Below are positions 6,376-19,690 of a DNA stretch of 64,000 nucleotides, piece by piece. This stretch comes from Reichenbachiella agariperforans (GTDB taxonomy: Bacteria > Bacteroidota > Bacteroidia > Cytophagales > Cyclobacteriaceae). Position numbers and translations under genes: made by a program. The notes below the pieces were generated by a model. That model ran no database searches and had not been told where the DNA came from. It worked only from the letters and a program-made list of their open reading frames with translations. Location: positions 62,001 to 126,000 of the forward strand of contig NZ_FRAA01000007.1 of the NCBI RefSeq assembly GCF_900142205.1, read 5' to 3'. Numbering within the stretch: the first letter of the stretch is position 1; every line of letters starts with the position of its first letter.

Positions 6376-6406
6376 AAAAAAGGTCAACAATAGTTGACCT
6401 TTTTTT
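6376..6406 (+). terminator. Rho-independent terminator of the tRNA gene
   Basis: An 8-bp perfect stem (AGGTCAAC at 6381-6388 with GTTGACCT at 6393-6400) with a 4-nt loop, flanked by an A run before and a run of Ts after. It lies 12 bp after the tRNA acceptor end and should end its transcript. The symmetric A/T flanks allow bidirectional function. Confidence 0.85.
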
Positions 6407-6722
6407 ATGCCCAAAATTCATAGATCACTTCGTGATTCAAGATTCATTGTTCGAAATTCATTATTGTTTTTCGTGAATAACCATCTCTTATAAGTCCTTG
6501 AGGTTAGTTTGAATGATTGGAATAAAAAATATTGAACCTGACTACCTAGTTTATCCCCCCAACTTTACAGACTGGTCTGAAATCAGAAGTCTAGTTCTAA
6601 AGTTGCCTAAGCAAAAAACTCTTCCTCTTTCCAAATAGCTAAACTTTGGATTTCTTTCGGAACCCCACACTATTAAGACAGCTCTTTAAACTTTCTCTAA
6701 ATCATAGTATCAATATTATAAA

Positions 6723-6737
6723 CGCAACATTATTGCT
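6723..6737. promoter_or_regulatory. Fur/Zur-like operator half-matching box 1 (peptide gene)
   Basis: CGCAACATTATTGCT is a 7-1-7 imperfect inverted repeat (5 of 7 positions pair). It matches the box at 6762-6776 and two boxes before the TonB receptor gene. Its distance to the peptide start is about 100 bp. Confidence 0.45.
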
Positions 6738-6761
6738 TTTGTAATATTCTTTCATTAAATA

Positions 6762-6776
6762 TGCAACACTGTTGCG
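6762..6776. promoter_or_regulatory. Fur/Zur-like operator box 2 (peptide gene)
   Basis: TGCAACACTGTTGCG is a 7-1-7 inverted repeat with 6 of 7 positions pairing. The architecture is that of Fur-superfamily operators, and a Fur/Zur-type regulator is encoded at 19265-19690. Two similar boxes recur upstream of the receptor gene, which makes chance less likely. Confidence 0.6.
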
Positions 6777-6838
6777 ATAGTAGAGGGCAAGCCGAAAACC
6801 TCAAAATAGAGTAGGCGTCATTCTAAATTTTATCAGTT

Positions 6839-6949
6839 ATGAAAACCAACAAAGAAGCTTTGATTGCACAAATTTTGGTAAGCAAAGCAGCAAACCCTGT
6901 TGGAGGTACGCACTGTAGTGGCGGTGGCCACTGTACTTCTACTTTGTAA
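6839..6949 (+). CDS. Putative RiPP precursor peptide, His-Cys-rich
   Basis: A 36-residue peptide, too short for usual gene calling. The first ~20 residues (MKTNKEALIAQILVSKAANP) look like a helical leader. A Gly-Gly pair at 22-23 is followed by the 13-residue tail THCSGGGHCTSTL, which holds two His-Cys pairs (H25-C26, H31-C32), three consecutive glycines and Ser/Thr residues. Leader, GG site and Cys/Ser/Thr-rich tail are the usual signs of a ribosomally made, modified peptide. The HC-x4-HC spacing would suit Zn or Cu binding. Two boxes of Fur/Zur type lie upstream, and seven or more genes follow on the same strand. No family is recognised. The function is inferred from composition and context, and a small non-modified metal-binding peptide is the alternative. 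Confidence 0.6.
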   Translation: MKTNKEALIAQILVSKAANPVGGTHCSGGGHCTSTL

Positions 6950-7002
6950 TCACAATATGCAGTAGTGTGAGAATCATACTACTGCTACTTAAATATTCTA
7001 AT

Positions 7003-7479
7003 ATGGGAGGTTTAGAAAAAATACGGTTAGACAGACTTCTTGATTATAATGACGAAAATGTGATTTCTAGATTCACTGATACGTTTGATGTGAGTAATGA
7101 AGAGGCAGAGGATATTTTAAAGGAAACGCTTAAGTTTCTTTATATCTGTCATATTCCAGGTGTTTTTATTTCCGATGACATACTGATGTTGGATGAAATG
7201 TGGCACAATATGATCTTGTTTACACCAGAGTATCACAGGTTTTCACAAGAGTATTTCTCTAAATACCTTCATCACTTACCCGCAAAAAAGTCGGAAAAGG
7301 AAGAGAGAAAGTGGGTACTTCAGCAGAAACCTGAAAATGCTAAGCAAGAGTATCTTGACAAATTGCAAGTACTTATTTCCATTACCTATGATCATTTAGG
7401 TGAAGAAACTGTAAAGAAATGGTTTCAGGAGTACCCCCAAAAATACAGTAAAGAGAAAATTAAAGCGTTAAGAAAATGA
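7003..7479 (+). CDS. GRDP-like protein with WH/HH motif, possible peptide-modifying protein
   Basis: A protein of 158 residues. A longer frame from a GTG at 6967 exists, but the ATG at 7003 gives a more normal N-terminus. The motif D64-E-x-W-H68-N-x-I-L-F-T-P-E-Y (64-77) with Y88-L-H-H-L-P further on resembles the WHxxILxTxxYxxFCxxxFxxFxHHxP signature of glycine-rich-domain-containing (GRDP-like) proteins. Three histidines (68, 90, 91) and an acidic pair could bind a metal. The rest is helical and charged, and there is no signal peptide. The stop overlaps the next start by 4 bp. The position between a precursor-like peptide and an RRE-like protein suggests a role in maturation, but the biochemical function of this domain is not known to me. 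Confidence 0.55.
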   Translation: MGGLEKIRLDRLLDYNDENVISRFTDTFDVSNEEAEDILKETLKFLYICHIPGVFISDDILMLDEMWHNMILFTPEYHRFSQEYFSKYLHHLPAKKSEKEERKWVLQQKPENAKQEYLDKLQVLISITYDHLGEETVKKWFQEYPQKYSKEKIKALRK

Positions 7480-8396
7480 GCATTTTCCCCAAACGGACTA
7501 TACAGGGTGAAACAGTGACTATTCACTGGAACTTCAATACATCTAACCTTAATGATTTTCATGTGTTACCTTGGGTAAGGATTGGCATCAAAAATCCTTT
7601 AGGAAAAGTTACAATGCTTTTTGAAGGACATGTACTAGGACTACCTGATGAACCAAAAGAACTGAAGACTGAAGAACCAAAATTAAAATATCTTAACAAA
7701 AGTGTACCCTTACTTTTATTGGCCGATTACCTCAGCGGAAAGCACAAAAAGGAAAAGCTGGTTGAGATACTTGAAAACATCCAATCTGGTCGCCATTATT
7801 ATTTCACCTATAAAGTGCCCAAAAATGCTCCTTTAGGCAAATATCATCTGATCTCAGAAATCCACATCAATGGAGAGTTAAGGCTTTCCAAAACAGCGGC
7901 AGATGACTTCTTTTTTGTTGAAAAAATGTCTTCCAAAAAGATTGAAAAATTCAATGATCACCATCAAGTATTAATATTTAATCATTCTCCGGAAAAAACG
8001 CCGGTCAAAATAGTCGGTTGCATACCTACCCTAGAAGGGAAAATGCAGACCACTGTGAATGTCTTTGAAATGGGCGGTTATGAAGAGAAAAAAGTCCCAT
8101 TAACTACCTCCTTGAGTTTTTTACTTTACAATGAAGAACGGCAGGTTATTCCTTTACAAGAGAGTTTTACTAATCTTTTGTTGAGAAATCAACAGATTTC
8201 TTCATTAAATAAATCCGGAGGAGATATTTATCTATTTAAAAAAGAAAATACTGAAGCTTATCACCTCAATGAAAGTCAAAGAATTTTATGGCAAAAAGCC
8301 AATGGTTTATTGAAGACAGAATCTTTGACCAAAAATGAAAGAATGCTTTTGGAAGAAATGGTAGCAGAAGACTTGATTCACTACTTATCTCTTTAG
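7476..8396 (+). CDS. Unknown protein with a PqqD/RRE-like C-terminus
   Basis: A protein of 306 residues with two apparent parts. Residues 1-150 are beta-rich, Ig-like in feel (GETVTIHWNFNTSNL, NAPLGKYHLISEIHINGELR). I recognise no family there. The last ~60 residues (248-306) follow the pattern of PqqD-type RiPP recognition elements: a short beta-hairpin (GDIYLFKKENTEAYHLNES), then helices with QRILWQKANG and RMLLEEMVAEDLIHYL, ending at a 'LI' turn. Such elements bind leader peptides in RiPP pathways. There is no signal peptide, so it is cytoplasmic. The start overlaps the upstream gene, hence coupled expression. The RRE assignment is by eye only and could be tested by HHpred against RRE profiles. 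Confidence 0.45.
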   Translation: MSIFPKRTIQGETVTIHWNFNTSNLNDFHVLPWVRIGIKNPLGKVTMLFEGHVLGLPDEPKELKTEEPKLKYLNKSVPLLLLADYLSGKHKKEKLVEILENIQSGRHYYFTYKVPKNAPLGKYHLISEIHINGELRLSKTAADDFFFVEKMSSKKIEKFNDHHQVLIFNHSPEKTPVKIVGCIPTLEGKMQTTVNVFEMGGYEEKKVPLTTSLSFLLYNEERQVIPLQESFTNLLLRNQQISSLNKSGGDIYLFKKENTEAYHLNESQRILWQKANGLLKTESLTKNERMLLEEMVAEDLIHYLSL

Positions 8397-8462
8397 AGGG
8401 GAAACCTCTCCATTTTGCCACTTACCCATCGTTTTAATCGAATCATAAAATTTACTTTTATT

Positions 8463-8491
8463 TTTCAAACGCAATATGATTGCGTTTGAAA
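8463..8491. promoter_or_regulatory. Perfect 13-3-13 inverted repeat, Fur/Zur-like operator
   Basis: Arms TTTCAAACGCAAT (8463-8475) and ATTGCGTTTGAAA (8479-8491) are exact inverse complements around ATG. The inner 15 bp (CGCAATATGATTGCG) match the other three boxes. There is no T tract, so an operator is more likely than a terminator. Confidence 0.6.
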
Positions 8492-8505
8492 CGAATTGCT
8501 ATGTT

Positions 8506-8520
8506 TGCAACAATATTGCA
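8506..8520. promoter_or_regulatory. Fur/Zur-like operator over the -7 element of the receptor gene
   Basis: TGCAACAATATTGCA is an inverted repeat with 6 of 7 positions pairing, ending 12 bp before the receptor start codon. It overlaps TATGTTTG (8500-8507), an exact match to the Bacteroidota -7 consensus TAnnTTTG. A bound repressor would block this promoter. Confidence 0.55.
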
Positions 8521-8532
8521 TTTTAAAAGAGT

Positions 8533-10869
8533 ATGATCTATCGCCTTTATATATTGATTCCCCTCACCCTTCTTCAAAGCCTTTGTTTTGGACAAGATGC
8601 TATGATTTCAGGTATAGTGATAGACGCCCATGGGGAGAAACTTCCTGGTGTAACGGTTCAAATCAATGAATTAAATCGTGGCTCTGTTACTGACCATGTA
8701 GGGCACTATACTTTCCCAAATCTTAAATCAGGTAATTACACAATCACGGCCTCATTTATCGGCTTTCAGAAGTATAATCAGCGTTTTACCATAAAGGATA
8801 GAAAACCCATAAGCATCAATATCACATTGAAAGAAGCGGTAACACAATTGAATGAAGTTACTGTCATGGCAAAATCAGAAAGTCAAGAGCTGCATGAAAG
8901 TGTGGCAAGTGTCGCTGTACTTGAAACAAAAAAACTGTATGCCCAAAGCAACAACACCAGCGATGTGATCAAGCAGATTTCGGGGGTGAATGTGAGACAA
9001 ACGGGAGGGTTTGGTAGTAGTGCTGATGTATACATCAACGGCATGTCCGGCAAGCAGGTAAAGTTCTTTCTTGATGGAATTCCACTTTCTTACTATGGTT
9101 CAGGACTGGGGCTTAATGTTTTACCCGTCAACCTGATGGAACAAATCGAAGTGTACAAAGGCGTAGTGCCAGTTGATCTGGGAGCTGATGCATTAGGGGG
9201 AGCAATTAACATCAAATCGAGAAAGGAATACATCAATTACTTGGATGCATCCTATTCCCTTGGTTCTTTCAACACACACAAAGTCAACCTGAATGGCCAA
9301 TACGTAAATTCAGAAAATCATTTAATAGCAGGAGTCAATTCGTTCTACAATCATTCGGATAATAATTATAAAGTTGACGTAGAGATTCCTGATCAGTTTG
9401 GTAACCCTGAACCTACTACCGTCAGACGGTTTCATGATCAGTTTACCAACTACTTAGTCAATGCGTATGCTGGAGTTTATGATAAGAAGTATGCTGATCG
9501 ACTAGTTTTTAGTGCCAGATTTTCAGGACTTGATGATGATATTCAGCACAATGCCGTGATGGCTCAGCCTTATGGTCAGGTTACTTATGATGAATCTACA
9601 TTGGGCTTTTCTGCTAATTATGAAAAGGAAGAAATCTTGCCTCGTATGGCGCTCAAGTGGTACGGGGGAGTAAATATGACTAGCGGGAACTTTGTGGACA
9701 CCACACTCAATGCCTATACATGGGATGGCGAGGTATATGACAGACGAACGGATGGAGGGGAGATTTCCACATCGCGCAACCTCTTGAGTCTCCATTCTAG
9801 GAATGCTGTAAGCAGGCTCAATCTTCACCACAATCCTTGGGAAAAGGGACAGTTCACTCTTAATGTTTTTTCCTCGCGGTTCAATAGATATGGGAAAGAT
9901 CCGATAGCCGCCGAATTTTATGGAGAGGACTTTTATGCCAACCCCACAACTTTGATTAAAAATGCCACAGGTCTGGCATACGAACATGCTTTCTCCACTG
10001 CATTGGTAAGTTACACGGGGGTCAAGCATTTCTATATGATGGCAGATGGGTATGCCATTCAAAACATGGAATTTCAGCCCAATAAGCAAACAGTCTCCAA
10101 TTTTGGGGTTTCCCAATCGTTGCGTTATCGATTTTTTAGGGATTTTCTAGCCAAAGCCTCCTACGAATATGCCACTCGCCTGCCTGACGAGACAGAGTTG
10201 TTTGGTGATTTTACCCTGGTGCGTCCCAACCCGTTTTTGAACCCTGAGCAAAGCCACAATGCCAATTTGGGCTTTCAATTCAACACCCAAAAGTTAAAAG
10301 TGGAATTGAATACATTCTACAGATTGACTGACAACATCATCTGGTTACGGACTTCTCAGTTCTTTGCACAATATCAAAACCTATTAAAGGCACTTGTCAA
10401 AGGGTTGGATGTTGAGGTTCAATACCAACCATTCGATTTTATCAGACTAAAGGCAAACGCAACCTATCAGGACATCCGAAACAGATCATCGAGAAGTGTG
10501 ACTGGTTCGGTAGATAATCGCTACTATGACGCCCGACTACCAAACATTCCCTATCTGTTTGGCAATGGAGAAGTCCGATATCAAAAGTCCGATTTTCTTG
10601 GGACAAATAGCCGATTCTCTGCGTGGTGGTCTGCTAGCTATGTACATGAGTTCTATCTCTATTGGGCAGTAGATGGAAATAAAGATTTAAAAAACACCAT
10701 ACCGAGTCAATTCATTCAAAACATTGGGGTCTCATACGCTCTTCCAGCTGACCGCTTCTCCGTCAGCCTCGAACCCACAAATCTTTTTGACCAGAAAGCA
10801 TTTGACAACTTCAGTGTGCAGCGTCCAGGCAGGGCTTTGTATGTCACTCTTAGAACTTATTTACACTAA
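8533..10869 (+). CDS. TonB-dependent receptor
   Basis: A 778-residue outer-membrane receptor. A signal peptide ends near residue 21 (CFGQ/DA). A CarboxypepD_reg-like domain covers about 24-100 (GIVIDAHGEKLPGVTV). The plug domain lies at about 130-232 (DVIKQISGVNVR, DGIPLSYYGSG, GALGGAINIKSR-type end), and a 22-strand barrel fills the rest, ending in an aromatic-rich strand. It takes up a metal-chelate or small ligand using TonB energy. SusD-type partners are missing, so it belongs to the siderophore-like class. Two Fur/Zur-like boxes lie directly before it, and a DUF4374-type lipoprotein follows 11 bp after its stop. Together these suggest uptake of a metallophore, possibly the product of the upstream peptide genes. 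Confidence 0.85.
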   Translation: MIYRLYILIPLTLLQSLCFGQDAMISGIVIDAHGEKLPGVTVQINELNRGSVTDHVGHYTFPNLKSGNYTITASFIGFQKYNQRFTIKDRKPISINITLKEAVTQLNEVTVMAKSESQELHESVASVAVLETKKLYAQSNNTSDVIKQISGVNVRQTGGFGSSADVYINGMSGKQVKFFLDGIPLSYYGSGLGLNVLPVNLMEQIEVYKGVVPVDLGADALGGAINIKSRKEYINYLDASYSLGSFNTHKVNLNGQYVNSENHLIAGVNSFYNHSDNNYKVDVEIPDQFGNPEPTTVRRFHDQFTNYLVNAYAGVYDKKYADRLVFSARFSGLDDDIQHNAVMAQPYGQVTYDESTLGFSANYEKEEILPRMALKWYGGVNMTSGNFVDTTLNAYTWDGEVYDRRTDGGEISTSRNLLSLHSRNAVSRLNLHHNPWEKGQFTLNVFSSRFNRYGKDPIAAEFYGEDFYANPTTLIKNATGLAYEHAFSTALVSYTGVKHFYMMADGYAIQNMEFQPNKQTVSNFGVSQSLRYRFFRDFLAKASYEYATRLPDETELFGDFTLVRPNPFLNPEQSHNANLGFQFNTQKLKVELNTFYRLTDNIIWLRTSQFFAQYQNLLKALVKGLDVEVQYQPFDFIRLKANATYQDIRNRSSRSVTGSVDNRYYDARLPNIPYLFGNGEVRYQKSDFLGTNSRFSAWWSASYVHEFYLYWAVDGNKDLKNTIPSQFIQNIGVSYALPADRFSVSLEPTNLFDQKAFDNFSVQRPGRALYVTLRTYLH

Positions 10870-10880
10870 AATTAGAATTA

Positions 10881-12089
10881 ATGAAAAAGCAATTACTCAA
10901 TCAAAAAGGTATATTGGTTATAGCCTTATTATCTGTATGGTCATTCATTGGATGTGAAAATGATGATCCCGAACCAAATACCAAACCAAGCGTGGAAGTT
11001 GATTTTGCCATTTCCACGGTAAGTGGGGCATGGCCTGATCAAACCACTTATATACAGGGCGTTGAATCTTTGGATTTTACCAGTTTGGGAAATGAAAATG
11101 CCATAGAACTGACAGGAAGTGCTCGTACAGTTTCTTACGAAGGCAGTGTGTATGCGATCCCATCAGGTGCACCTGCTAACCTGATAAAATACAGCATAAA
11201 TACCAATGGCGTTCCTGAAGAAGAAGAACGAATTGTAGTGCCTGGGGCTAATACCTTTTCCACACTCTATTTCGAAAGTGAAACCGTAGCATATGGCACG
11301 GTAGCTGGGGGTATTTCAAAACTTATCATATTCGATCCCTCTACGATGCGGATTACGGATGAAGTTTCCCTAACGGCTATAACTCAAAAATTTCCAGAAG
11401 CCACTCGCACCTATTATCTCGACATGATAGAAAGAGATGGTAAGCTTTTTATGGGCATTCATTACGAAAATAATTTTGTGCCAGTCAACGACAATGCCTA
11501 CGTAGCGGTCATTGATTTAAGCACCAATACAGTAGAAAAAGTAATATCAGACACCCGAACTGGTATGTTTTTCGGTGGACAAGCACCCAACTCAGGAATG
11601 ATATTGGACGCTAATGGGGACATATATGTTCAGACACTGGGTACTACAAATGCCGGAGGAGTAGCTCCTAGCGGGGTATTACGCATCAAAAGTGGTGAAA
11701 CCGATTTTGATCCAGATTATTTCTTTGATCTCGAAGAGGCAGTAGGCAATATCTGCTATGGCATCTATCATACTTCAAGCGGACGTACTTTCACCGCCAA
11801 TGTTCAAAACGAAACAGACTTTTGGGAATATCTCACGGACGAGCCCCAATTTAAGTATGTAGAAATTGACCTTGAAGCTACAGAAAGCCTTGGCAATGTT
11901 CCAGGGTTACCTACTACCTATGGTTCAAGAACAATGATCGTTCATGAGTTGGAAGATCAGAAACTGCTATTCACTATTGCCACAAATGATGAAAATGCGG
12001 TGTACGAATTTGACACGAATACCAATACCAGTAGCAAGCTTTTTGTATCCACAGGTGGTTATATCTCAGGTCTGGAAAAACTAAATTAA
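10881..12089 (+). CDS. DUF4374-like surface lipoprotein, beta-propeller
   Basis: A 402-residue protein with a lipoprotein signal (SFIGCEN, C25), followed by an acidic stretch (ENDDPEPN) that favours export to the outer surface in Bacteroidota. The repeated blades (GSVYAIPSGAPANLIKYSIN, KLIIFDPSTMRITDEV, DANGDIYVQTLG, LFTIATNDENAVYEFD) show a beta-propeller like that of DUF4374 proteins. The DUF4374 protein XusB of Bacteroides thetaiotaomicron is a surface siderophore-binding partner of the TonB receptor XusA. The same order, receptor then lipoprotein, is seen here. Its ligand is unknown. The PepSY partner XusC is absent. Confidence 0.65.
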   Translation: MKKQLLNQKGILVIALLSVWSFIGCENDDPEPNTKPSVEVDFAISTVSGAWPDQTTYIQGVESLDFTSLGNENAIELTGSARTVSYEGSVYAIPSGAPANLIKYSINTNGVPEEEERIVVPGANTFSTLYFESETVAYGTVAGGISKLIIFDPSTMRITDEVSLTAITQKFPEATRTYYLDMIERDGKLFMGIHYENNFVPVNDNAYVAVIDLSTNTVEKVISDTRTGMFFGGQAPNSGMILDANGDIYVQTLGTTNAGGVAPSGVLRIKSGETDFDPDYFFDLEEAVGNICYGIYHTSSGRTFTANVQNETDFWEYLTDEPQFKYVEIDLEATESLGNVPGLPTTYGSRTMIVHELEDQKLLFTIATNDENAVYEFDTNTNTSSKLFVSTGGYISGLEKLN

Positions 12090-12091
12090 TT

Positions 12092-12793
12092 ATGCTACAA
12101 GCCACAGAACTCACGAAAAAGTACGGAAAATTCACAGCGCTGAATGCCCTCAATCTTTCGGTAAAAAAGGGCGATATATTTTGCCTGCTTGGGGCTAATG
12201 GGGCAGGGAAATCTACCACGATTAACCTGTTTCTTAACTTCATTGAGCCTACGGGGGGTAAAGCCACCATCAACGCACTGGACGTGACGCAGCACGGGAA
12301 AGCAACCAAAAAGCTGCTGTCCTACATCCCCGAAAATCTGATGCTATATCCTAACCTAACGGGGCTGGAAAATTTGGATTTTTTCTGTGGCTTGGGAGGC
12401 AAGAGTTATAGCAAGGATCATTTGGAAGAACTGCTCAAGCAATCAGGTTTGCAGACCAACTTCCTGCACAAGCGTGTGAGCAATTACTCCAAAGGCATGC
12501 GCCAAAAAGTGGGAATTGCTTTGGCACGAGCTCGTGAAGCCAGTGTACTACTACTGGATGAGCCAACATCAGGACTTGATCCAAAAGCCAGCAACGAGTT
12601 TTCCGAACTTTTACTAGATATGAAGGACAAAGGAGTGGCCACATTGATGGCCACTCATGACCTTTTCCGTGCCAAAGATACGGGCACGCATATCGGGATT
12701 ATGAAAGAAGGGATACTGATCGAGCAGTTTGCTTCGGATGATGTCAGCTTTCAGGACTTGGAAAAACTCTACCTCAAGCACATGCACAATTAA
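12092..12793 (+). CDS. ABC transporter ATP-binding protein
   Basis: A 233-residue ATPase of the ABC-2 type. Walker A is GANGAGKST (34-42), the signature motif is YSKGM (132-136) and Walker B is LLLDEP (153-158), followed by the H-loop ATHD. Sequence style and the partner permeases resemble NosF/CcmA-type exporters. It starts 2 bp after the lipoprotein stop and is followed by two membrane proteins, so the three should form one transporter. The substrate could be the peptide product or a related toxin or chelate, and the gene order alone cannot tell. Confidence 0.9.
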   Translation: MLQATELTKKYGKFTALNALNLSVKKGDIFCLLGANGAGKSTTINLFLNFIEPTGGKATINALDVTQHGKATKKLLSYIPENLMLYPNLTGLENLDFFCGLGGKSYSKDHLEELLKQSGLQTNFLHKRVSNYSKGMRQKVGIALARAREASVLLLDEPTSGLDPKASNEFSELLLDMKDKGVATLMATHDLFRAKDTGTHIGIMKEGILIEQFASDDVSFQDLEKLYLKHMHN

Positions 12794-12800
12794 GTAGTTT

Positions 12801-14237
12801 ATGAATCAGCTAATTTTTATAGCCAAAAAGGAAATCAAGGTGGCCATTCGTGAAAGGCTCGTTATTTCTCTAGGAGCAATTATTATTTTGTTGTTGGGAG
12901 TAGCCTTGTATGCTGGATATATTTCATATCGTCAGCAGCAGCAAATCATCACCCAAACCCAGATTGAAAAGCGGCAAGAATGGTTGAATCAAGGTGACAA
13001 ACATCCGCATATTGCTGCACACTATGGCACCTTTGTATTTAAACCCAAAACCATTCTCAGTCTGTTTGACTTTGGTTTAGACGCTTATACTGGGACCTCG
13101 GTGTATTTGGAAGCACATCATCAGCATGAATTCATGTTTCGTCCAGCCCAAGATCATAGCAGTATGATCCGTTTTGGTGAACTAAGTGCTGCGTTGGTGT
13201 TGCAGGTACTCGTTCCTTTGCTCATTATTTTCTTGGCTTTTGCTTCTTTCACTCGTGAGCGGGAAAGCGGAACACTCAAACTGCTCATGAGTCAGGGGAC
13301 ATCTTTCAATACATTGACTTGGGGAAAAATACTGGCTTACGCAGTGATGCTGGCAGTGATCCTACTACCGTTCTTGCTCGGTTTGGTGCTCCTTTCGGTA
13401 AGTCACATGAGCTATGATGTCATTCCAGATATAACAGTCAGAGTAGCCATGCTGGTGCTGATCTATGGTCTGTATTTATGTTTCTTTATCGCTTTTTCTG
13501 TGTGGGTGTCTCTACGGTCTGGCTCAGGGAGAAATGCGCTACTTACATTACTTACCTGTTGGATATTTTTTGCCATTCTCTTGCCCAAAACAGTAGCTAA
13601 CCTCAGTGAGAGTTTTTATTCGCTACCTTCCATGCGGGAGTTTAAAGCACAGATCGATGAAACCAAGCGAAATGGACTGGATGGGAAAACGCCCCGATCC
13701 GTTCGTATGGCTAATTTGAAAAAAGAGTATCTGGAAAAATACGGGGTAGATTCGGTGCAACAGCTGCCATTCAATTTTGAAGGCGTGAGCATGCAGGCAG
13801 GGGAAGAATTTGGTGACCAAGTCTATGATTATCATCTAAATAACCTTCGTGAGATTTTTCATAAGCAAAACCAGTTGGGCAGCATCGCTAGTCTCTTCAA
13901 TCCCTATCTGGCTGTACAGCACCTTTCCATGGCTCTATCAGGGACAGATATACACACCTTTATCCACTTTGAAGAAGAGGTAGAGAGATATAGAAGAGAG
14001 CTGGTACGAAAAATGAATCAGGATATGGCCGAAAACTCTAAGTATGGAGAATTCTATGGCTACAAGGCAGGAAGTGACTTGTGGGGAGAAATCGAAGACT
14101 TTTCTTACCGAGCACCTACCGCCTGGCAGCTCCTCAGCTACTACAAATTGGAACTAATCTCCCTGATGCTGTGGATGGCGCTTACAATGGTACTCTTACA
14201 TGTTGCAAACCGAAAAATGAAACCAATCCATGAATAG
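12801..14237 (+). CDS. ABC-2 permease with large extracytoplasmic domain (DUF3526-like)
   Basis: A 478-residue membrane protein. One helix lies at about 20-42, a long soluble segment at 45-125, then a cluster of helices at about 130-275 (LVPLLIIFLAFASFTRERESGTLKLLMSQG is the ABC-2 coupling segment), another soluble part at 275-445 and a last helix. This is the layout of DUF3526 permeases found with NosF-like ATPases. It starts 7 bp after the ATPase and overlaps the next permease by 8 bp, so the two probably form a heterodimer. Confidence 0.8.
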   Translation: MNQLIFIAKKEIKVAIRERLVISLGAIIILLLGVALYAGYISYRQQQQIITQTQIEKRQEWLNQGDKHPHIAAHYGTFVFKPKTILSLFDFGLDAYTGTSVYLEAHHQHEFMFRPAQDHSSMIRFGELSAALVLQVLVPLLIIFLAFASFTRERESGTLKLLMSQGTSFNTLTWGKILAYAVMLAVILLPFLLGLVLLSVSHMSYDVIPDITVRVAMLVLIYGLYLCFFIAFSVWVSLRSGSGRNALLTLLTCWIFFAILLPKTVANLSESFYSLPSMREFKAQIDETKRNGLDGKTPRSVRMANLKKEYLEKYGVDSVQQLPFNFEGVSMQAGEEFGDQVYDYHLNNLREIFHKQNQLGSIASLFNPYLAVQHLSMALSGTDIHTFIHFEEEVERYRRELVRKMNQDMAENSKYGEFYGYKAGSDLWGEIEDFSYRAPTAWQLLSYYKLELISLMLWMALTMVLLHVANRKMKPIHE

Positions 14238-15669
14238 ACAGATTCTAACATTGATCCGCTACGAGTGGAAAACTTTTGTTCGCAACAAGTTTCAGCTGCT
14301 CCTGCTCGTCATTACCTTTCTTTTTGGTCTGTACGCGATATACTACGGACAGTCAGAAATCAATGCACAGCGGGAAACGATCAACGCAGTAACTGCTCTA
14401 GAGACAAAAGAGTTTTCTCAATACAAAGGCAGTTTTACTACAGAAATGGAAAACCAGACGCAGGAGCAAACACATGATATAGCTTCCCGTCCAGAGTATG
14501 CCTGGTATCGCCATGGCTATCATGCTATTTTACCTCCACACGATTATGCTCCACTGGCGATCGGCCAGCGTGATTTGTTTCGGTACTACTACCGACTCAC
14601 AGGCACGAGCTTGCATTATCAGCTGTTTGAAAATGAACTGGCCAACCCTGTGAACCTCCTAGCAGGCAATTTTGATCTCTCTTTCCTGCTGGTTTATTTG
14701 TTCCCGCTGCTGATTATCGCCTTTTGCTATGGTTTGTTTTCTTCTGAAAAGGAAAGCGGTACGCTTGCACTCTTACAGATACAGGCCGTTAGCATCCGAA
14801 AAATCATGCTGGTTCGCCTGGCATTTTATTTCGTACTGATCACGGGACTAGCTATATTCATTTCGCTCTTAGGTCTATGTTTATCAGGCAATCCTTTTAC
14901 AGAGGAAAACATGTTGCCTGCCATCGCATGGGTGATAGGGACCACTTTGTATTGTGCCTTTTGGTTTGGGCTGCTGTTTTTAATCATAAGCTTTAAGAAA
15001 GGTTCGGCTTTCAATGCCATTTCCGCTGCTGGTTGCTGGTTGCTATTGCTCATCGTAGTTCCAGCAGTGCTCAATGTGATTGTTACCGTCAAGTATCCTT
15101 TGAGCAGTGCAACATTGGCTGGCCTCACCCGCAGAACTGGGCTCGAAAATGAGGATGACGAAGAGGAGTCTAAAGAAGTAATTATGGAATTCCTTGCTCA
15201 CATGCCAGAGCTGACTGGGAGTGATAGCTTAATGAAAAACAACATGCTCCCAAAAGCTTATGCGGCTTTTACCACACTAAAAGACATCAACAGCCAACAG
15301 GAAGTGGATCACTATAATGACAAGGTGGCGAAAAGGAATCAATGGACATCACAGTTTCTATGGCTCAGCCCAGCAGTAAACATGCAGGAGATTTTGGCTC
15401 ACATAACGCAAACGGACCTCAATACTTTTCTTGATTTTCAGAATGCGTTAGCGGATTTTCATGAAGAAATCACAGACTTCTACTTCACGCGCCTGTTCTG
15501 GGACAGACCAATTTTATTAGAAGATTACGAGCAATTGCCTGTTTTTGAGATGTCCGAAGATCTAAATCGCGGGAACATCATTTGGTTTGGCTTAGGCAAA
15601 ATTTTGATAGCGGCAGGGCTGGTGTTTTTAGTAGGCTTTTTCAGAATGCGTAAAGGGGTCAAGCAATGA
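14230..15669 (+). CDS. Second ABC-2 permease (DUF3526-like)
   Basis: A 479-residue paralogue of the preceding permease with the same topology: helix at about 20-40, soluble domain, helices at about 150-285 including the coupling segment GLFSSEKESGTLALLQIQAV, soluble domain and a C-terminal helix. The loop at about 305-315 is strongly acidic (ENEDDEEESKE). It overlaps both neighbours by a few bases, which fits coupled production of a two-subunit membrane unit. Confidence 0.8.
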   Translation: MNRQILTLIRYEWKTFVRNKFQLLLLVITFLFGLYAIYYGQSEINAQRETINAVTALETKEFSQYKGSFTTEMENQTQEQTHDIASRPEYAWYRHGYHAILPPHDYAPLAIGQRDLFRYYYRLTGTSLHYQLFENELANPVNLLAGNFDLSFLLVYLFPLLIIAFCYGLFSSEKESGTLALLQIQAVSIRKIMLVRLAFYFVLITGLAIFISLLGLCLSGNPFTEENMLPAIAWVIGTTLYCAFWFGLLFLIISFKKGSAFNAISAAGCWLLLLIVVPAVLNVIVTVKYPLSSATLAGLTRRTGLENEDDEEESKEVIMEFLAHMPELTGSDSLMKNNMLPKAYAAFTTLKDINSQQEVDHYNDKVAKRNQWTSQFLWLSPAVNMQEILAHITQTDLNTFLDFQNALADFHEEITDFYFTRLFWDRPILLEDYEQLPVFEMSEDLNRGNIIWFGLGKILIAAGLVFLVGFFRMRKGVKQ

Positions 15670-17870
15670 AAAAGGTATTAGTATTTCTTACTTTTATAAT
15701 CCATGCCTATTACCTGATAGCACAAGAAGTTGAAAACTTTCCACCTCCTACAAAACCTCCTGAAATACGTGCCATTCGCACCAGCGAAGACATAAAAGTG
15801 GATGGGGAACTAATGGAGGATTCCTGGCAAAAAGCACCAGTAACCCATGATTTTTATCGAGTAGAGCCTCGTCAGGGGGGCACCTATCGGTATCAGACAC
15901 AGGTGAGGTTACTTTATGACGAGAAGAATCTATATGTAGGTGTTTTTTGTACAGACTCCCTCGGAAAAAAGGGTGTTCGGGTGCAAGACTTGCGAAGGGA
16001 TTTTTCTTGGGGAGAAAATGATGCTTTTGGTATTCAGTTGGATCCGCAAAACCTAAAGCAATATTGTGTGTCGTTTCAAACTACTCCCTATGGCAATCAA
16101 CGAGATATGCAAAACTTCAATGACAACAATACGGATAGCAATTGGAATGCGCTCTGGACGGTGCGGACACATCAGACCGACTCGGGTTACTTTGCAGAGT
16201 TTGCCATTCCTTTCAAGTCTATTCGGTACGAGCGACCTGAAATAGCGGACTCTGTGACCTGGGGTATTACCTTTACACGTCTGGCTCGTAGAGAGTATGA
16301 ACAAACCGTATTTCCAGCCATACCTCAGTCTTTTTCTCCCTATCGGATGACGTATGCCGCTCAACTAAAAGGGCTCACTGTTCCCGAACCAAGTGCCAAT
16401 GTGAGAATAGAACCCTATTTTCTTTATCAGTATGAGGATACTGAAATTAATGGTGAAACTATTTCGGATGATAATGTGAAATTAGGTGGAGATATCAAAT
16501 GGGCGATCAATCCACGCTCGGTTTTAGATCTTACCTTCAATACTGATTTTGCACAAGCTGATGTGGATCAGGCTGTCAATAATCTGGAAAGATTCAACGT
16601 CTATTTCCCTGAAAAGAGGCAATTTTTCTTAGAGAACTCAGGTATCTGGGCTGGGGCGGCTGACCGTTCGGTTATCCCCTTTTTTAGCAGAACCATTGGC
16701 TTACAGGGCAATTTTAATGCAGAACCCGCTCGGATCGATGGAGGTGCAAGATATACCATGCGAAACGATGACCGATCCACGGCAGGGCTGTACATGCACC
16801 AAGCTCAAACCGCCAACTCTCCAGCTGCAAGTTTTGCCGTAGGTCGTTATATTCAAAATTATGGAAAGGAAAACAATGTAGGTATCATGTTCACTCATCG
16901 GCTAGATGAGGCTTCCGAAGAACTGGGAGTGACACAAAGCAACAATACAACCTTGACTGTGGATGGGTTGATCCGTCCCAAAAGCGAACTGACCTTCTCC
17001 TACTTATTATCAGGATCACGTGATAATTCCAATGACACCTTAGGTCTAGCAGGAAAGCTATTTGCGGGCTATAACACCAATAAGTTTTACTTAGGCTGGC
17101 TAACTAATTTCGTCACAGAAGATTACAATCCAGATATGGGGTTTGTCTTTCAGAAAAATGTAATCTGGCATAACCCAGGTGGTTATTTCATCTGGCGGCC
17201 AAAAAGTATACCTTGGATCAGGCGTTTTGATCCTGGAGCCTTTTTCAACTATTATCAGGACGCAAGCGATCCTACTAATTTTCAGCAGGCCAGTATTTAC
17301 TTGTTTCCTATTTACGTGTACTTCACGGATGGCAGCTTTTTTGAATATGCCATTTACCCAACCTGGCAAAACATCAATTTCGATTTTGCTCCTTTGGGAA
17401 TAGCTATTGCTCAGGACGAATATTATTACACTCGTCATCAGATCAACTACAATTCAGATCAGTCAAGGAAATTTTCAGTATCAGGAAAACTCGGTTGGGG
17501 TGGTTTTTACAATGGAAAACGATTAACTGCTAATACAGGCTTGCGTTATGCGCCTATTCCACATGTGGCATTTACAGCTGATTATGAATACAACAACTTG
17601 GATAACTTAGGTGTATTGTTGGAAGATTTGGATACACACTTAGCCACTTTTGGGGCAAGATTTGCACTTAATCCACGTTTGCAACTTTCTGCTTTTTACC
17701 AATACAATTCATTTGATGAGCAAGGTCGGTGGAACGTTCGTGGAAGTTGGGAATACCGCCCTTTGTCTTTTATCTATTTGGTGTTTAATGACACTCAAAT
17801 CAATGGGCTGGAGCGACCCTTTGAGCAACAGCAGTTGATTGGGAAGGTCACTTTTTTGAAGCAGTTTTAG
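15666..17870 (+). CDS. DUF5916 outer-membrane protein with CBM9-like N-terminus
   Basis: A 734-residue exported protein. A signal peptide ends at about residue 20 (YYLIAQ). Residues 30-220 form a CBM9-like beta-sandwich (VDGELMEDSWQKAPV, LLYDEKNLYVGVFC, FTRLARREYE). The rest matches the DUF5916 barrel-like region, with YFPEKRQFFLENSGIW as the usual family marker and alternating aromatic strands to the C-terminus. It is common in Bacteroidota and its function is unknown. Its start overlaps the second permease by 4 bp. Placement inside the operon could mean it forms an outer-membrane exit or entry path for the ABC unit, which is inference. Confidence 0.75.
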   Translation: MKKVLVFLTFIIHAYYLIAQEVENFPPPTKPPEIRAIRTSEDIKVDGELMEDSWQKAPVTHDFYRVEPRQGGTYRYQTQVRLLYDEKNLYVGVFCTDSLGKKGVRVQDLRRDFSWGENDAFGIQLDPQNLKQYCVSFQTTPYGNQRDMQNFNDNNTDSNWNALWTVRTHQTDSGYFAEFAIPFKSIRYERPEIADSVTWGITFTRLARREYEQTVFPAIPQSFSPYRMTYAAQLKGLTVPEPSANVRIEPYFLYQYEDTEINGETISDDNVKLGGDIKWAINPRSVLDLTFNTDFAQADVDQAVNNLERFNVYFPEKRQFFLENSGIWAGAADRSVIPFFSRTIGLQGNFNAEPARIDGGARYTMRNDDRSTAGLYMHQAQTANSPAASFAVGRYIQNYGKENNVGIMFTHRLDEASEELGVTQSNNTTLTVDGLIRPKSELTFSYLLSGSRDNSNDTLGLAGKLFAGYNTNKFYLGWLTNFVTEDYNPDMGFVFQKNVIWHNPGGYFIWRPKSIPWIRRFDPGAFFNYYQDASDPTNFQQASIYLFPIYVYFTDGSFFEYAIYPTWQNINFDFAPLGIAIAQDEYYYTRHQINYNSDQSRKFSVSGKLGWGGFYNGKRLTANTGLRYAPIPHVAFTADYEYNNLDNLGVLLEDLDTHLATFGARFALNPRLQLSAFYQYNSFDEQGRWNVRGSWEYRPLSFIYLVFNDTQINGLERPFEQQQLIGKVTFLKQF

Positions 17871-17871
17871 G

Positions 17872-19218
17872 ATGTTAAGAGAGCCTGATTTGCTGAAGGA
17901 TAGCCCCTGGAAACTAATGCATAGGCTTTCATTGCCAGGTATTTTGGGTATGATGGTGTTGTCTATCAATTCCTTGGTGGATTCTGTGTACTTAAGTCAT
18001 TTGGTAAGTGCAGACGCTTTTGCTGGAGTATCTCTACTGTTTCCACTGACACTAGTGGTTACAAGTGTAACCGGATTTATTGCAGCAGGTTCATCATCTG
18101 TGTTGAGCAGGGCGATTGGCGCTGGTAACCAACAGGTTCAACGAATGGTTATACCTAATATGATCGTCCTTGCATTGTTTTCTTCGGTAATACTTATGTT
18201 GGCAGGGTTGTTTTTTGGAGAAGAAGCTGTCTTGTTGATGGGAGTCGAAGGAGCGGTGTATCAGGCAGGTGTGGATTATCTGCAGGTTTATGTGTTGGGG
18301 ATATTTTTCAGTATTTACGGGCTTTCGGCCAATGGATTGATCCGTTCAGAAGGTAAAATCAGACAGGCCATGACTTATACTGTTATTGCTGTGGTTCTTA
18401 ATATTATTCTAACCCCGGTATTTATAGAATCAGTTGGTTTGGGAGTAAGGGGGGCAGCGTTGAGCAGTATTGTCAGTATGATGGTGTATAGCGTACTCAC
18501 TTCCTTCTATTTCACCCAGGGGAAAGCTACCTTCGATACTGGGAAGTTCTGCATTAGGATTGAAAAAGACATTATCGCAGATGTGATCAATGTAGGCTCA
18601 TCGACACTGGTCATGCAATTGTCCAATGTGGTTCGTCAGTTTATTGTTTTTAGATCCGTCACATGGTACGGCAATGCCCATGATTTGGCTGTGTTTAGTG
18701 CCGTTTTTCGACTATTCTCTTTCGTTTCCATTCCAGGAATGGGCTTATTGCAATCTCTACAGCCTGTAATAGGGGTGAATTTTGGAGCTGCCAACTGGCA
18801 AAGGTGCATTCATACTATCAATACGTTCAGATGGGGCGGCATTCTTCTGATGTGTCTACTTTTACTACCAGTAGTAACATTCCCAAGAGAGTTTCTGGGG
18901 TTTATGATTCCTAATGAATCAATTAGCAATAATGAACTGAATTACCTAAGGCTGGTTTTACTCGCTCTGCCATTTTTACCCATATCCACGAGTACAATCA
19001 TTTTTTTTCAGGCAATAGGAAAAGGTAAAAAGGCCACATTGCTCCCACTTGTACGGCAGGTACTTTTATTCGTTCCTTTGATTTTTATTTTGCCTAATTT
19101 TATCTCCCTAGACGGAATTTATTATGCATTAGCCATCGAAAATGTCATTTATGCAATAATGCTCTGGATTATACTAAAAGATGAGATTCGGACATTTCAA
19201 AGCTACATCACAACATGA
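17872..19218 (+). CDS. MATE family efflux transporter
   Basis: A 448-residue protein with about 12 hydrophobic segments in two similar halves. Family features include GILGMMVLSINSLVDSVYLSH at the N-terminus (helix 1-2), GxSSVLSRAIGAGN and GANWQRC. MATE proteins export cationic or small hydrophobic compounds in exchange for Na+ or H+. It begins 1 bp after the DUF5916 stop and is the last gene of the row. In methanobactin clusters a MATE protein (MbnM) is the proposed exporter of the mature peptide, so an analogous export role is attractive here. The Fur-family gene is convergent 46 bp downstream. Confidence 0.88.
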   Translation: MLREPDLLKDSPWKLMHRLSLPGILGMMVLSINSLVDSVYLSHLVSADAFAGVSLLFPLTLVVTSVTGFIAAGSSSVLSRAIGAGNQQVQRMVIPNMIVLALFSSVILMLAGLFFGEEAVLLMGVEGAVYQAGVDYLQVYVLGIFFSIYGLSANGLIRSEGKIRQAMTYTVIAVVLNIILTPVFIESVGLGVRGAALSSIVSMMVYSVLTSFYFTQGKATFDTGKFCIRIEKDIIADVINVGSSTLVMQLSNVVRQFIVFRSVTWYGNAHDLAVFSAVFRLFSFVSIPGMGLLQSLQPVIGVNFGAANWQRCIHTINTFRWGGILLMCLLLLPVVTFPREFLGFMIPNESISNNELNYLRLVLLALPFLPISTSTIIFFQAIGKGKKATLLPLVRQVLLFVPLIFILPNFISLDGIYYALAIENVIYAIMLWIILKDEIRTFQSYITT

Positions 19219-19264: not shown

Positions 19265-19690
19265 TCAGACTTTACATTCCTTACAGATACCACTGAGGGT
19301 ATAATTAACTCGATTAACTGAGAACTCGCTAGAGATCTTTATCTCTGGAACTTCTACATCTTCCAGACAATAGGTATGATGACATTCATCACAAACAAAG
19401 TGGGCATGCTGATCAGCATGGGTCTCATCAGGACAATCATGACCACAAAGAGCATATTTTGCCCCTTGTCCATCTTCAGAAGCTTTGTGTAAGATACCAT
19501 GTTCTTCGAAAGAAGCCAGCGCTCGATATACCGTTACCCGGTCATGTCTTGCTTTCATTTTAGCTACAATATCACTTGCCGAAAGCGCAAAGTCATGGTT
19601 CATAAAAAGGTCAAGCATTTCCATACGGATGGGCGTTTTTTTAAGCCCATGAGCATGTAGCAGGTCACCTATTATTTTTTCATTATCCAT
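19265..19690 (-). CDS. Fur-family metalloregulator, Zur-like
   Basis: A 141-residue repressor of the Fur superfamily. The winged-helix half includes LKKTPIRMEMLDLFMNHDFALSASDI and DRVTVYRALASFEEHGIL. The C-terminal half has the metal sites: HADQHAHFVCDECHHTYC, and CKEC at the end, which provide the structural Zn(Cys)4 site. CGHDCPDETHADQHAH adds further His/Cys ligands. The short length and this ligand pattern suit Bacteroidota Zur-like proteins more than iron Fur, but the metal cannot be decided by eye. It is convergent with the MATE gene and its target boxes are plausibly those before the peptide and receptor genes. Confidence 0.85.
   Translation of the reverse strand: MDNEKIIGDLLHAHGLKKTPIRMEMLDLFMNHDFALSASDIVAKMKARHDRVTVYRALASFEEHGILHKASEDGQGAKYALCGHDCPDETHADQHAHFVCDECHHTYCLEDVEVPEIKISSEFSVNRVNYTLSGICKECKV

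Follow-up and report, generated by a model that had tools for sequence, protein, structure and literature searches.

The window analysed here, a stretch of 64,000 nucleotides of Reichenbachiella agariperforans DNA, contains a gene cluster that looks like an undescribed gene-encoded zinc-scavenging system. We consider it slightly better than an even chance (about 0.52) that the cluster is a ribosomal metallophore (zincophore) system induced by zinc starvation. A ribosomal zincophore is the simplest account because it accommodates at once an operator of the zinc type, a Cys/His precursor preceded by an RNA of the kind seen at precursor genes, two apparently cytoplasmic partner proteins, exporters and a TonB importer equipped with a lid. 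Gene conservation, synteny, the operator with its zinc-type targets, the RNA element and the protein families were computed directly. An earlier note on this DNA had proposed that three of the genes make a peptide of a new RiPP class, a proposal that remains plausible from sequence; the zinc-type operator, the DUF805b RNA and the uptake and export genes, from which the likely function of the cluster follows, were absent from it.

The peptide gene and its two partner proteins

The three open reading frames lie exactly where the earlier note had placed them. On the forward strand, a gene of 36 codons (6839–6949) encodes the 36-residue His-Cys precursor peptide MKTNKEALIAQILVSKAANPVGGTHCSGGGHCTSTL, and is followed by the genes of a 158-residue GRDP-like protein, here called P0002 (7003–7479), and of a 306-residue protein, P0003 (7476–8396), the last two overlapping by 4 bp. 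The conserved small ORF that the note had predicted upstream of such gene pairs in relatives was looked for and found: in 33 of 34 related loci a short precursor-like ORF with an HC-x4-HC-x4 end stands beside the conserved partner genes, as expected of a RiPP cluster, in the order peptide, GRDP-like protein, P0003, and in the single locus where no peptide was seen (L013) the contig begins within the operon. These loci come from named records that carry P0003, and they are not independent, because several species from one genus are among them. Their carriers include Aquimarina, Tenacibaculum, Fulvivirga, Flavivirga, Algibacter, Allomuricauda, Pedobacter, Mucilaginibacter, Terrimonas, Hymenobacter, Flavobacterium and others, presumably spanning several orders of Bacteroidota; one record (L020) is labelled Thalassovita, which is not a Bacteroidota name. 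Searches of 196 genomes from the family and 390 from the order found P0003 in 6 and 3 of them, respectively, the window's own genome being counted in both, and several genomes, among them G019 (L009), G090 and G536 (L010), G009 (L011), G007 and G538 (L023) and G384 (L020) are the same as those of the loci given in brackets and add no independent copy.

The core starts with HCSNCGHC in 31 of the 34 peptides counted, two of which come from Tenacibaculum ovolyticum, the window version being HCSGGGHC. In an alignment of 31 rows M1, H25, C26, H31 and C32 are invariant, the first half of the peptide is conserved and the His-Cys end is separate from it. The Gly-Gly to which the earlier note had drawn attention does occur ahead of the core in the window family, in 18 of the 31 rows, and is therefore not a fixed feature of the peptide. 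The peptide is under purifying selection, with pS of 0.24 and pN of 0.045 summed over 11 pairs (12 were tried and one was dropped for unequal length). It is highly improbable that the short ORF is only a regulatory leader peptide, a Cys/His attenuator of the operon that yields no product: it is indeed Cys- and His-rich and comes first among the ORFs behind an RNA element, but the amino acids of its first half are conserved too, the whole-gene pN/pS is 0.18, and T. ovolyticum has two tandem copies of the gene, each with its own DUF805b RNA in front. No NCBIfam leader model matched the peptide, and the peptide, P0002 and P0003 have no Pfam or NCBIfam family above cut-off. A degenerate copy was seen in Flavivirga algicola (L040:9519–10495), in which the peptide is intact, the GRDP-like frame is shortened, the P0003 frame stops at 165 residues and no TonB match or cluster was detected.

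The AlphaFold model of P0002 consists entirely of helices (pLDDT 88) and gave no useful match in the PDB, and sequence searches linked neither P0002 nor P0003 to any solved structure. The WH...HH motif that had been reported for this protein is correct. Its designation as GRDP-like holds by way of intermediates, not directly: P0002 itself has no direct PF07173 match in Pfam, and this family is absent among the 23 Pfam families listed for 32 members of the P0002 family, but the family profile finds a protein (L097, E 2.8e-4) that itself belongs to PF07173 at 6.4e-9, so that homology of P0002 to PF07173 is supported at the sequence level through intermediates only. The 32-row family alignments (A2 and A3, the latter giving this profile) comprise the window, L007 and 30 of the 34 loci, with L021, L033, L038 and L040 omitted as near copies or broken. 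Relatives were found by the profile in 8 of 394 other genomes of the phylum. D64, W67, H68, T74, Y77, H91 and P93 are common to a ten-row alignment of P0002 and its GRDP-like relatives, and a putative metal site may lie at the conserved residues, which include D64, H68 and H91. Neither P0002 nor P0003 has a signal peptide recognizable by eye, and both are apparently cytoplasmic.

Cys/Gly/Ser-rich tails (SCGSSC..., SSCSSCSSCSSD or CKKASCTRTQCKPQKCK) accompany GRDP-like domains in L092–L096, L098, L100, L097 and L122, either fused to them or next to them; the PF07173 protein of L097 has itself a Cys-rich end, and in L091 the GRDP-like relative stands beside a protein ending SSCSSCSSCSSD. SCGSSC-type tails occur on seven GRDP-like proteins of about 460 residues, six from the profile search of the 394 genomes and one from another search, which amount with the rest to about four independent cases because the 460-residue proteins form one orthologous group. 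Among 554 other ORFs of at least 150 residues, only four have at least four Cys in their last 40 residues. The nearest stand-alone GRDP-like relative (L090/L121; 7182–7661, reverse strand) is encoded directly downstream of a 78-residue Cys-rich peptide with a Gly-Gly leader (7712–7948, reverse strand), which may represent another peptide family with a GRDP-like protein as its partner. In L121 a gene that appears hydrolase-like by eye comes after the GRDP-like gene and overlaps it, and the 15 kb read at this locus held no match to P0003 or TonB.

P0003 is modelled (AlphaFold, pLDDT 83) as two beta-sandwich domains and a small C-terminal domain, residues 242–304 of which run through three strands, a helix, a strand, a helix and a strand. 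The PqqD-like, RRE-type end that the earlier note had assigned to this protein is retained here as a weak resemblance: an hhalign comparison with PqqD, for which 18 of 20 PqqD loci were used, gave a score of 19.7 (p 0.004) that exceeds all 60 column shuffles (at most 14.5), yet its probability is only 8%, and the modelled domain would depart from a strict RRE fold in having two helices and not three. PqqD is not among the best 25 of 26 Pfam families for 32 members of the P0003 family. The partner genes of the peptide presumably encode its maturation proteins.

A zinc-type operator and an RNA element ahead of the peptide gene

A palindrome with the consensus TGCAACAnTGTTGCA occurs twice ahead of the peptide gene, as CGCAACATTATTGCT (6723–6737, 11 of 14 matches) and as the predicted Zur box TGCAACACTGTTGCG (6762–6776, 13 of 14), and once ahead of the TonB gene, as TGCAACAATATTGCA (8506–8520, 13 of 14), which ends 12 bases before the start codon. 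A perfect 29-base palindrome read from the sequence, TTTCAAACGCAAT-ATG-ATTGCGTTTGAAA (8463–8491), also precedes the TonB gene, and its centre was recovered by a separate search too. In 24 of 33 loci the 250 bp ahead of the peptide contain an operator with at least 12 of 14 matches, compared with a background of 0.008 sites per 250 bp in the remaining parts of the same DNA, and 22 of these 33 relatives have two sites (at least 11 of 14) spaced by 37–39 bp. The nine loci in which no operator of at least 12 of 14 was found in those 250 bp belong to Allomuricauda, three Tenacibaculum, two Flavivirga, Algibacter, Terrimonas and Hymenobacter, and all nine retain the GTTGCAA half.

The operator is shared, with exceptions, by typical zinc-starvation genes. 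Allowing two mismatches, 11 operator-like places were found in the window's own genome versus one for a reversed control; six of them belong to the peptide gene, the TonB gene, a unit of a MerC-family gene and a COG0523-type GTPase named by eye (two sites) and two Fur-family genes, while the other five are at genes without an evident role in zinc metabolism. Six other genomes gave 31 places versus two for the control when one mismatch was allowed, and 20 stretches around such places were inspected. COG0523-type units have the operator upstream in three of the six (G536, G539 and G541), as in the window's own genome; it also stands upstream of a ZIP transporter (L080), HisI (L071), TonB receptors (L072 and L079) and a gene that is MerC-like by eye, whose unit includes GTP cyclohydrolase I (L073). 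In three genomes (L046, L075 and L077) it lies beside an FAD-dependent reductase, a candidate further member of the regulon in Bacteroidota. Several sites in the six genomes are at genes without an evident zinc role, and one (L087) is behind a GTPase gene, not before it. In Pfam, PRA-CH, Zip, MerC, GTP_cyclohydroI and cobW were confirmed for one representative each, as were three FUR genes, that of the window included. Genes of the COG0523, ZIP, HisI, MerC, Fur-family and GTP cyclohydrolase I types are described as members of Zur regulons in the available parts of two sources (PMC2770081, PMC6103462).

Given its position before COG0523-type GTPase, ZIP, HisI and Fur-family genes elsewhere, the palindrome is probably the operator of Zur, the regulator of zinc starvation, and from its targets zinc starvation apparently switches the cluster on. 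The candidate Zur is a Fur-family regulator (PF01475) encoded at 19265–19690 on the reverse strand, after the MATE gene and convergent with the operon. No operator copy was seen beside this gene within the window; in L070 a gene whose start closely resembles that of the window Fur is situated, by eye, across an operator from a COG0523-type gene. A metallophore for copper, iron or cobalt, controlled by a Fur-family regulator other than Zur, is unlikely, given that the other targets of the operator (ZIP, HisI, COG0523- and MerC-type genes and the GTP cyclohydrolase I unit) are typical of zinc starvation, even if the regulator was assigned from sequence and not by experiment, Cys/His cores bind copper, and the DUF4374 proteins of known ligand in the accessible part of PMC13142918 carry ferric siderophores.

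Between the operator and the start codon of the peptide lies a DUF805b RNA (Rfam RF02914; 6782–6817, forward strand), a small pseudoknot in the 5' leader that cmscan found at 42.4 bits versus a gathering score of 35.6 (E 4.1e-10; positions 6400–8700 scanned). It is present above gathering ahead of the peptide in 24 of the 34 loci, and no DUF805b above gathering was found at any other place in them. Pair counts over 34 sequences, 16 of the peptide family and 18 others, describe a pseudoknot of four plus three pairs with 95.3% of cells paired; covariation is 0.532 versus 0.195 in shuffles, none of 500 shuffles reaching 0.532, both-sided changes occur in 44 cells versus 12.5, and the support collapses when the partners are slid. 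Each of 26 genome sets, which contain two duplicates (G007/G538 and G090/G536), had between 1 and 21 matches with E no higher than 0.1, and 24 of the 26 had matches above gathering; the corresponding figures for control genomes were 7 of 14 with matches at E up to 0.1 and none of 14 above gathering.

In a first set of DUF805b sites (28 of 30 loci parsed, 26 of them distinct), 18 of 26 precede an ORF of at most 91 residues, five of these being of the peptide family, and in a second set 23 of 40 further sites precede an ORF of at most 85 residues and three have no ORF, proportions that are not unbiased rates because the sites of both sets (L125–L194) were picked among the best-scoring matches. 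At the 40 sites of the second set roughly 16 to 31 bases separate the RNA from the start codon; the 23 short ORFs of this set comprise, by eye, five members of the peptide family and 16 other peptides with Gly-Gly leaders. When ten chosen short-gene proteins behind the RNA were compared with leader models, three matched that of pinensin and one that of class I lanthipeptides above cut-off. Among the literature matches naming DUF805, none is, by its title and the start of its abstract, a paper on the DUF805b RNA, and DUF805 is not named in PMC9723704 or PMC7266159. The RNA places the peptide gene among precursor-type genes, and the orphan DUF805b may in reality belong with short peptide genes, many of which encode Gly-Gly leaders.

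Precursors of Bacteroidota lanthipeptides (pinensin, class I leaders) thus have the same RNA in front; unlike their loci, the row of genes scanned in the window has no LanB or LanC. This shared RNA would suit an antimicrobial, bacteriocin-like RiPP made under zinc limitation, with the ABC transporter providing immunity or export, and the ATPase does resemble lantibiotic-protection ABC subunits, although below cut-off (TIGR03740, 145.5 versus 309.75 bits). Antimicrobial cores usually diversify, however, and that of the present family is nearly invariant, while the TonB receptor and its DUF4374 lid point to uptake; we therefore regard such a product as quite unlikely.

Transport genes and a proposed route for the peptide

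The partner genes are followed on the forward strand by those of a TonB-dependent receptor with an N-terminal CarboxypepD_reg domain (8533–10869; Pfam and NCBIfam, the best NCBIfam model being MxcH, which reaches 558 bits and thus stays under its cut-off of 925), a DUF4374 protein of the XusB family whose start is lipobox-like by eye (..FIGCENDDP; 10881–12089), an ABC transporter ATPase (12092–12793), two ABC permeases with DUF3526 (12801–14237 and 14230–15669), a DUF5916/CBM9 protein (15666–17870), these last five being assigned by Pfam, and a MATE-family transporter (17872–19218; Pfam and NCBIfam). As in Xus-type uptake, the TonB transporter adjoins a DUF4374 lipoprotein. In the 34 loci, tblastn detected the GRDP-like protein in 34, TonB in 33, DUF4374 in 31, each permease in 30, the ATPase in 28, MATE in 25 and DUF5916 in 16, counting a best match of at least 60 bits at any place in the locus; some of the misses fall where a contig stops, and a match to a generic transporter is not necessarily an orthologue. 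The DUF5916/CBM9 gene may be accessory. In Flavobacterium psychroterrae (L042) the TonB, DUF4374 and permease genes are on the opposite strand.

Pfam and NCBIfam searches with an E-value limit of 0.1 covered the ten proteins encoded from 6839 to 19218, the ATPase being judged by the best 25 of its 193 matches. These proteins include no radical-SAM, YcaO, LanB or MNIO (DUF692) protein, as the earlier note had remarked for its row of genes, no other enzyme that defines a RiPP class, and no C39 peptidase. The peptide might act unmodified inside the cell, as a zinc buffer or chaperone together with P0002 and P0003, with TonB, DUF4374 and ABC proteins importing another zinc carrier. HCSNCGHC resembles a zinc knuckle and, judging from its residues, would bind zinc without modification, and the operator is common to COG0523-type genes. 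We nevertheless think this rather unlikely, as DUF805b groups the gene with short leader-type peptide genes, the peptide combines a conserved first half with a separate His-Cys end, and the MATE and ABC genes travel with it.

In the zincophore scheme that we favour, scarcity of zinc would release Zur from the paired operators and allow transcription of the operon, the DUF805b pseudoknot in the leader tuning its expression. The beta-sandwich protein P0003 would hold the short precursor while P0002, by means of its conserved Asp-His-His set, would process the Cys/His core, whether by modification, control of oxidation or metal loading. A C-terminal core of about 13 residues would be released, exported by the MATE and/or the DUF3526 ABC transporter, and would bind extracellular zinc through its His-Cys pairs; the surface DUF4374 lipoprotein might then capture the loaded peptide for import by the TonB receptor. 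We infer every biochemical step of this scheme, modification, export and zinc binding included.

Two features of the surroundings may be added. Small secreted-type proteins with His/Asp-rich parts were seen by eye near the cluster in Tenacibaculum, Flavivirga, Algibacter and Mucilaginibacter (L027 and L029–L033, at about 8440–8890 and, in most, 20380–20840; L036/L037, at about 10920), and are possible zinc-binding accessory proteins. Further along the window, 23767–63926 reads by eye as a large polysaccharide-utilisation locus, unrelated to the peptide cluster, with SusC/SusD-like pairs, sulfatase-like genes and a hybrid two-component regulator.

Relation to known systems

Methanobactin systems combine MATE export with TonB uptake, a layout like that of the window cluster. 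With methanobactin and the other RiPP metallophores made by MNIO enzymes (captophorins), the cluster has in common a short ribosomal Cys precursor, adjacent maturation genes and a link to metal; the match to the methanobactin MATE model NF045578 is only weak (24.8 versus 285 bits). It differs from that group in that its row lacks MNIO/DUF692 among the ten proteins scanned and it has a zinc-type operator, a different peptide and different partner proteins. The papers on MNIO-made metallophores PMC13097082 and PMC12538549 concern copper, in their available parts.

Control by Zur is shared with the zincophores pseudopaline, coelibactin and EDDS, as is TonB uptake in Gram-negatives, according to the accessible text of PMC6103462; these are small molecules made by enzymes, whereas the window cluster has a gene-encoded peptide. 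Gene-encoded zinc scavenging as such is not new, since ZepA of Anabaena is known, a secreted zinc-binding protein under Zur control that acts as an extracellular scavenger induced by zinc deficiency (PMC10957091). ZepA differs in being a folded protein of 27 kDa with a signal peptide and PEP-CTERM, and the available part of the same description mentions no short precursor, partner pair or DUF4374/TonB set. On the uptake side, DUF4374 proteins of known ligand are the XusB surface lids, which bind siderophores on the TonB transporter, and the XusABC system of Bacteroides likewise has a TonB transporter with a carboxypeptidase-like N-terminal domain and a DUF4374 lid (PMC13142918, accessible part). 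XusABC steals a siderophore, whereas the uptake pair of the window has a peptide gene and exporters as its neighbours, and no PepSY domain was found in the ten scanned proteins.

PF07173 GRDP-like/DUF1399 proteins, those of plants included, have the D-x2-W-H ... H-x-P pattern in common with P0002 in the ten-row alignment, and their Cys-rich partner tails are a likeness to P0002 and its peptide; unlike those proteins with tails, P0002 is a separate protein beside a separate peptide and has no direct match to the family. This domain occurs in plants and bacteria, and we know of no chemistry assigned to it. A more ambitious reading, which we advance tentatively and hold to be more probably wrong than right, is that the cluster represents a new class of RiPP: a ribosomal zincophore under Zur control that owes its maturation to a GRDP-like protein, with the GRDP/DUF1399 domain as a general partner or catalyst for Cys-rich tails and DUF805b as an element that controls such peptide genes in Bacteroidota. 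The tail would be a separate peptide here, is fused in other bacteria, and would correspond to the Gly/Cys tails published for plants, where the C-terminus of GRDP2 is rich in Gly with Cys residues in between (PMC4299439, in its available part).

Among the literature matches listed, with subscription journals outside their scope, there was no description of the cluster, of a RiPP zincophore or of a link between GRDP proteins and RiPPs. The zincophores named in the available parts of the literature are small molecules assembled by enzymes, and ZepA is secreted as a complete protein; a zincophore consisting of a short ribosomal peptide, with partner proteins of its own, would be new, if true, and cultured carriers such as Fulvivirga, Aquimarina and Pedobacter are at hand for testing it. 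If so, the GRDP/DUF1399 domain would gain a candidate type of substrate, and the orphan DUF805b RNA a physiological context in the expression of short peptide precursors.
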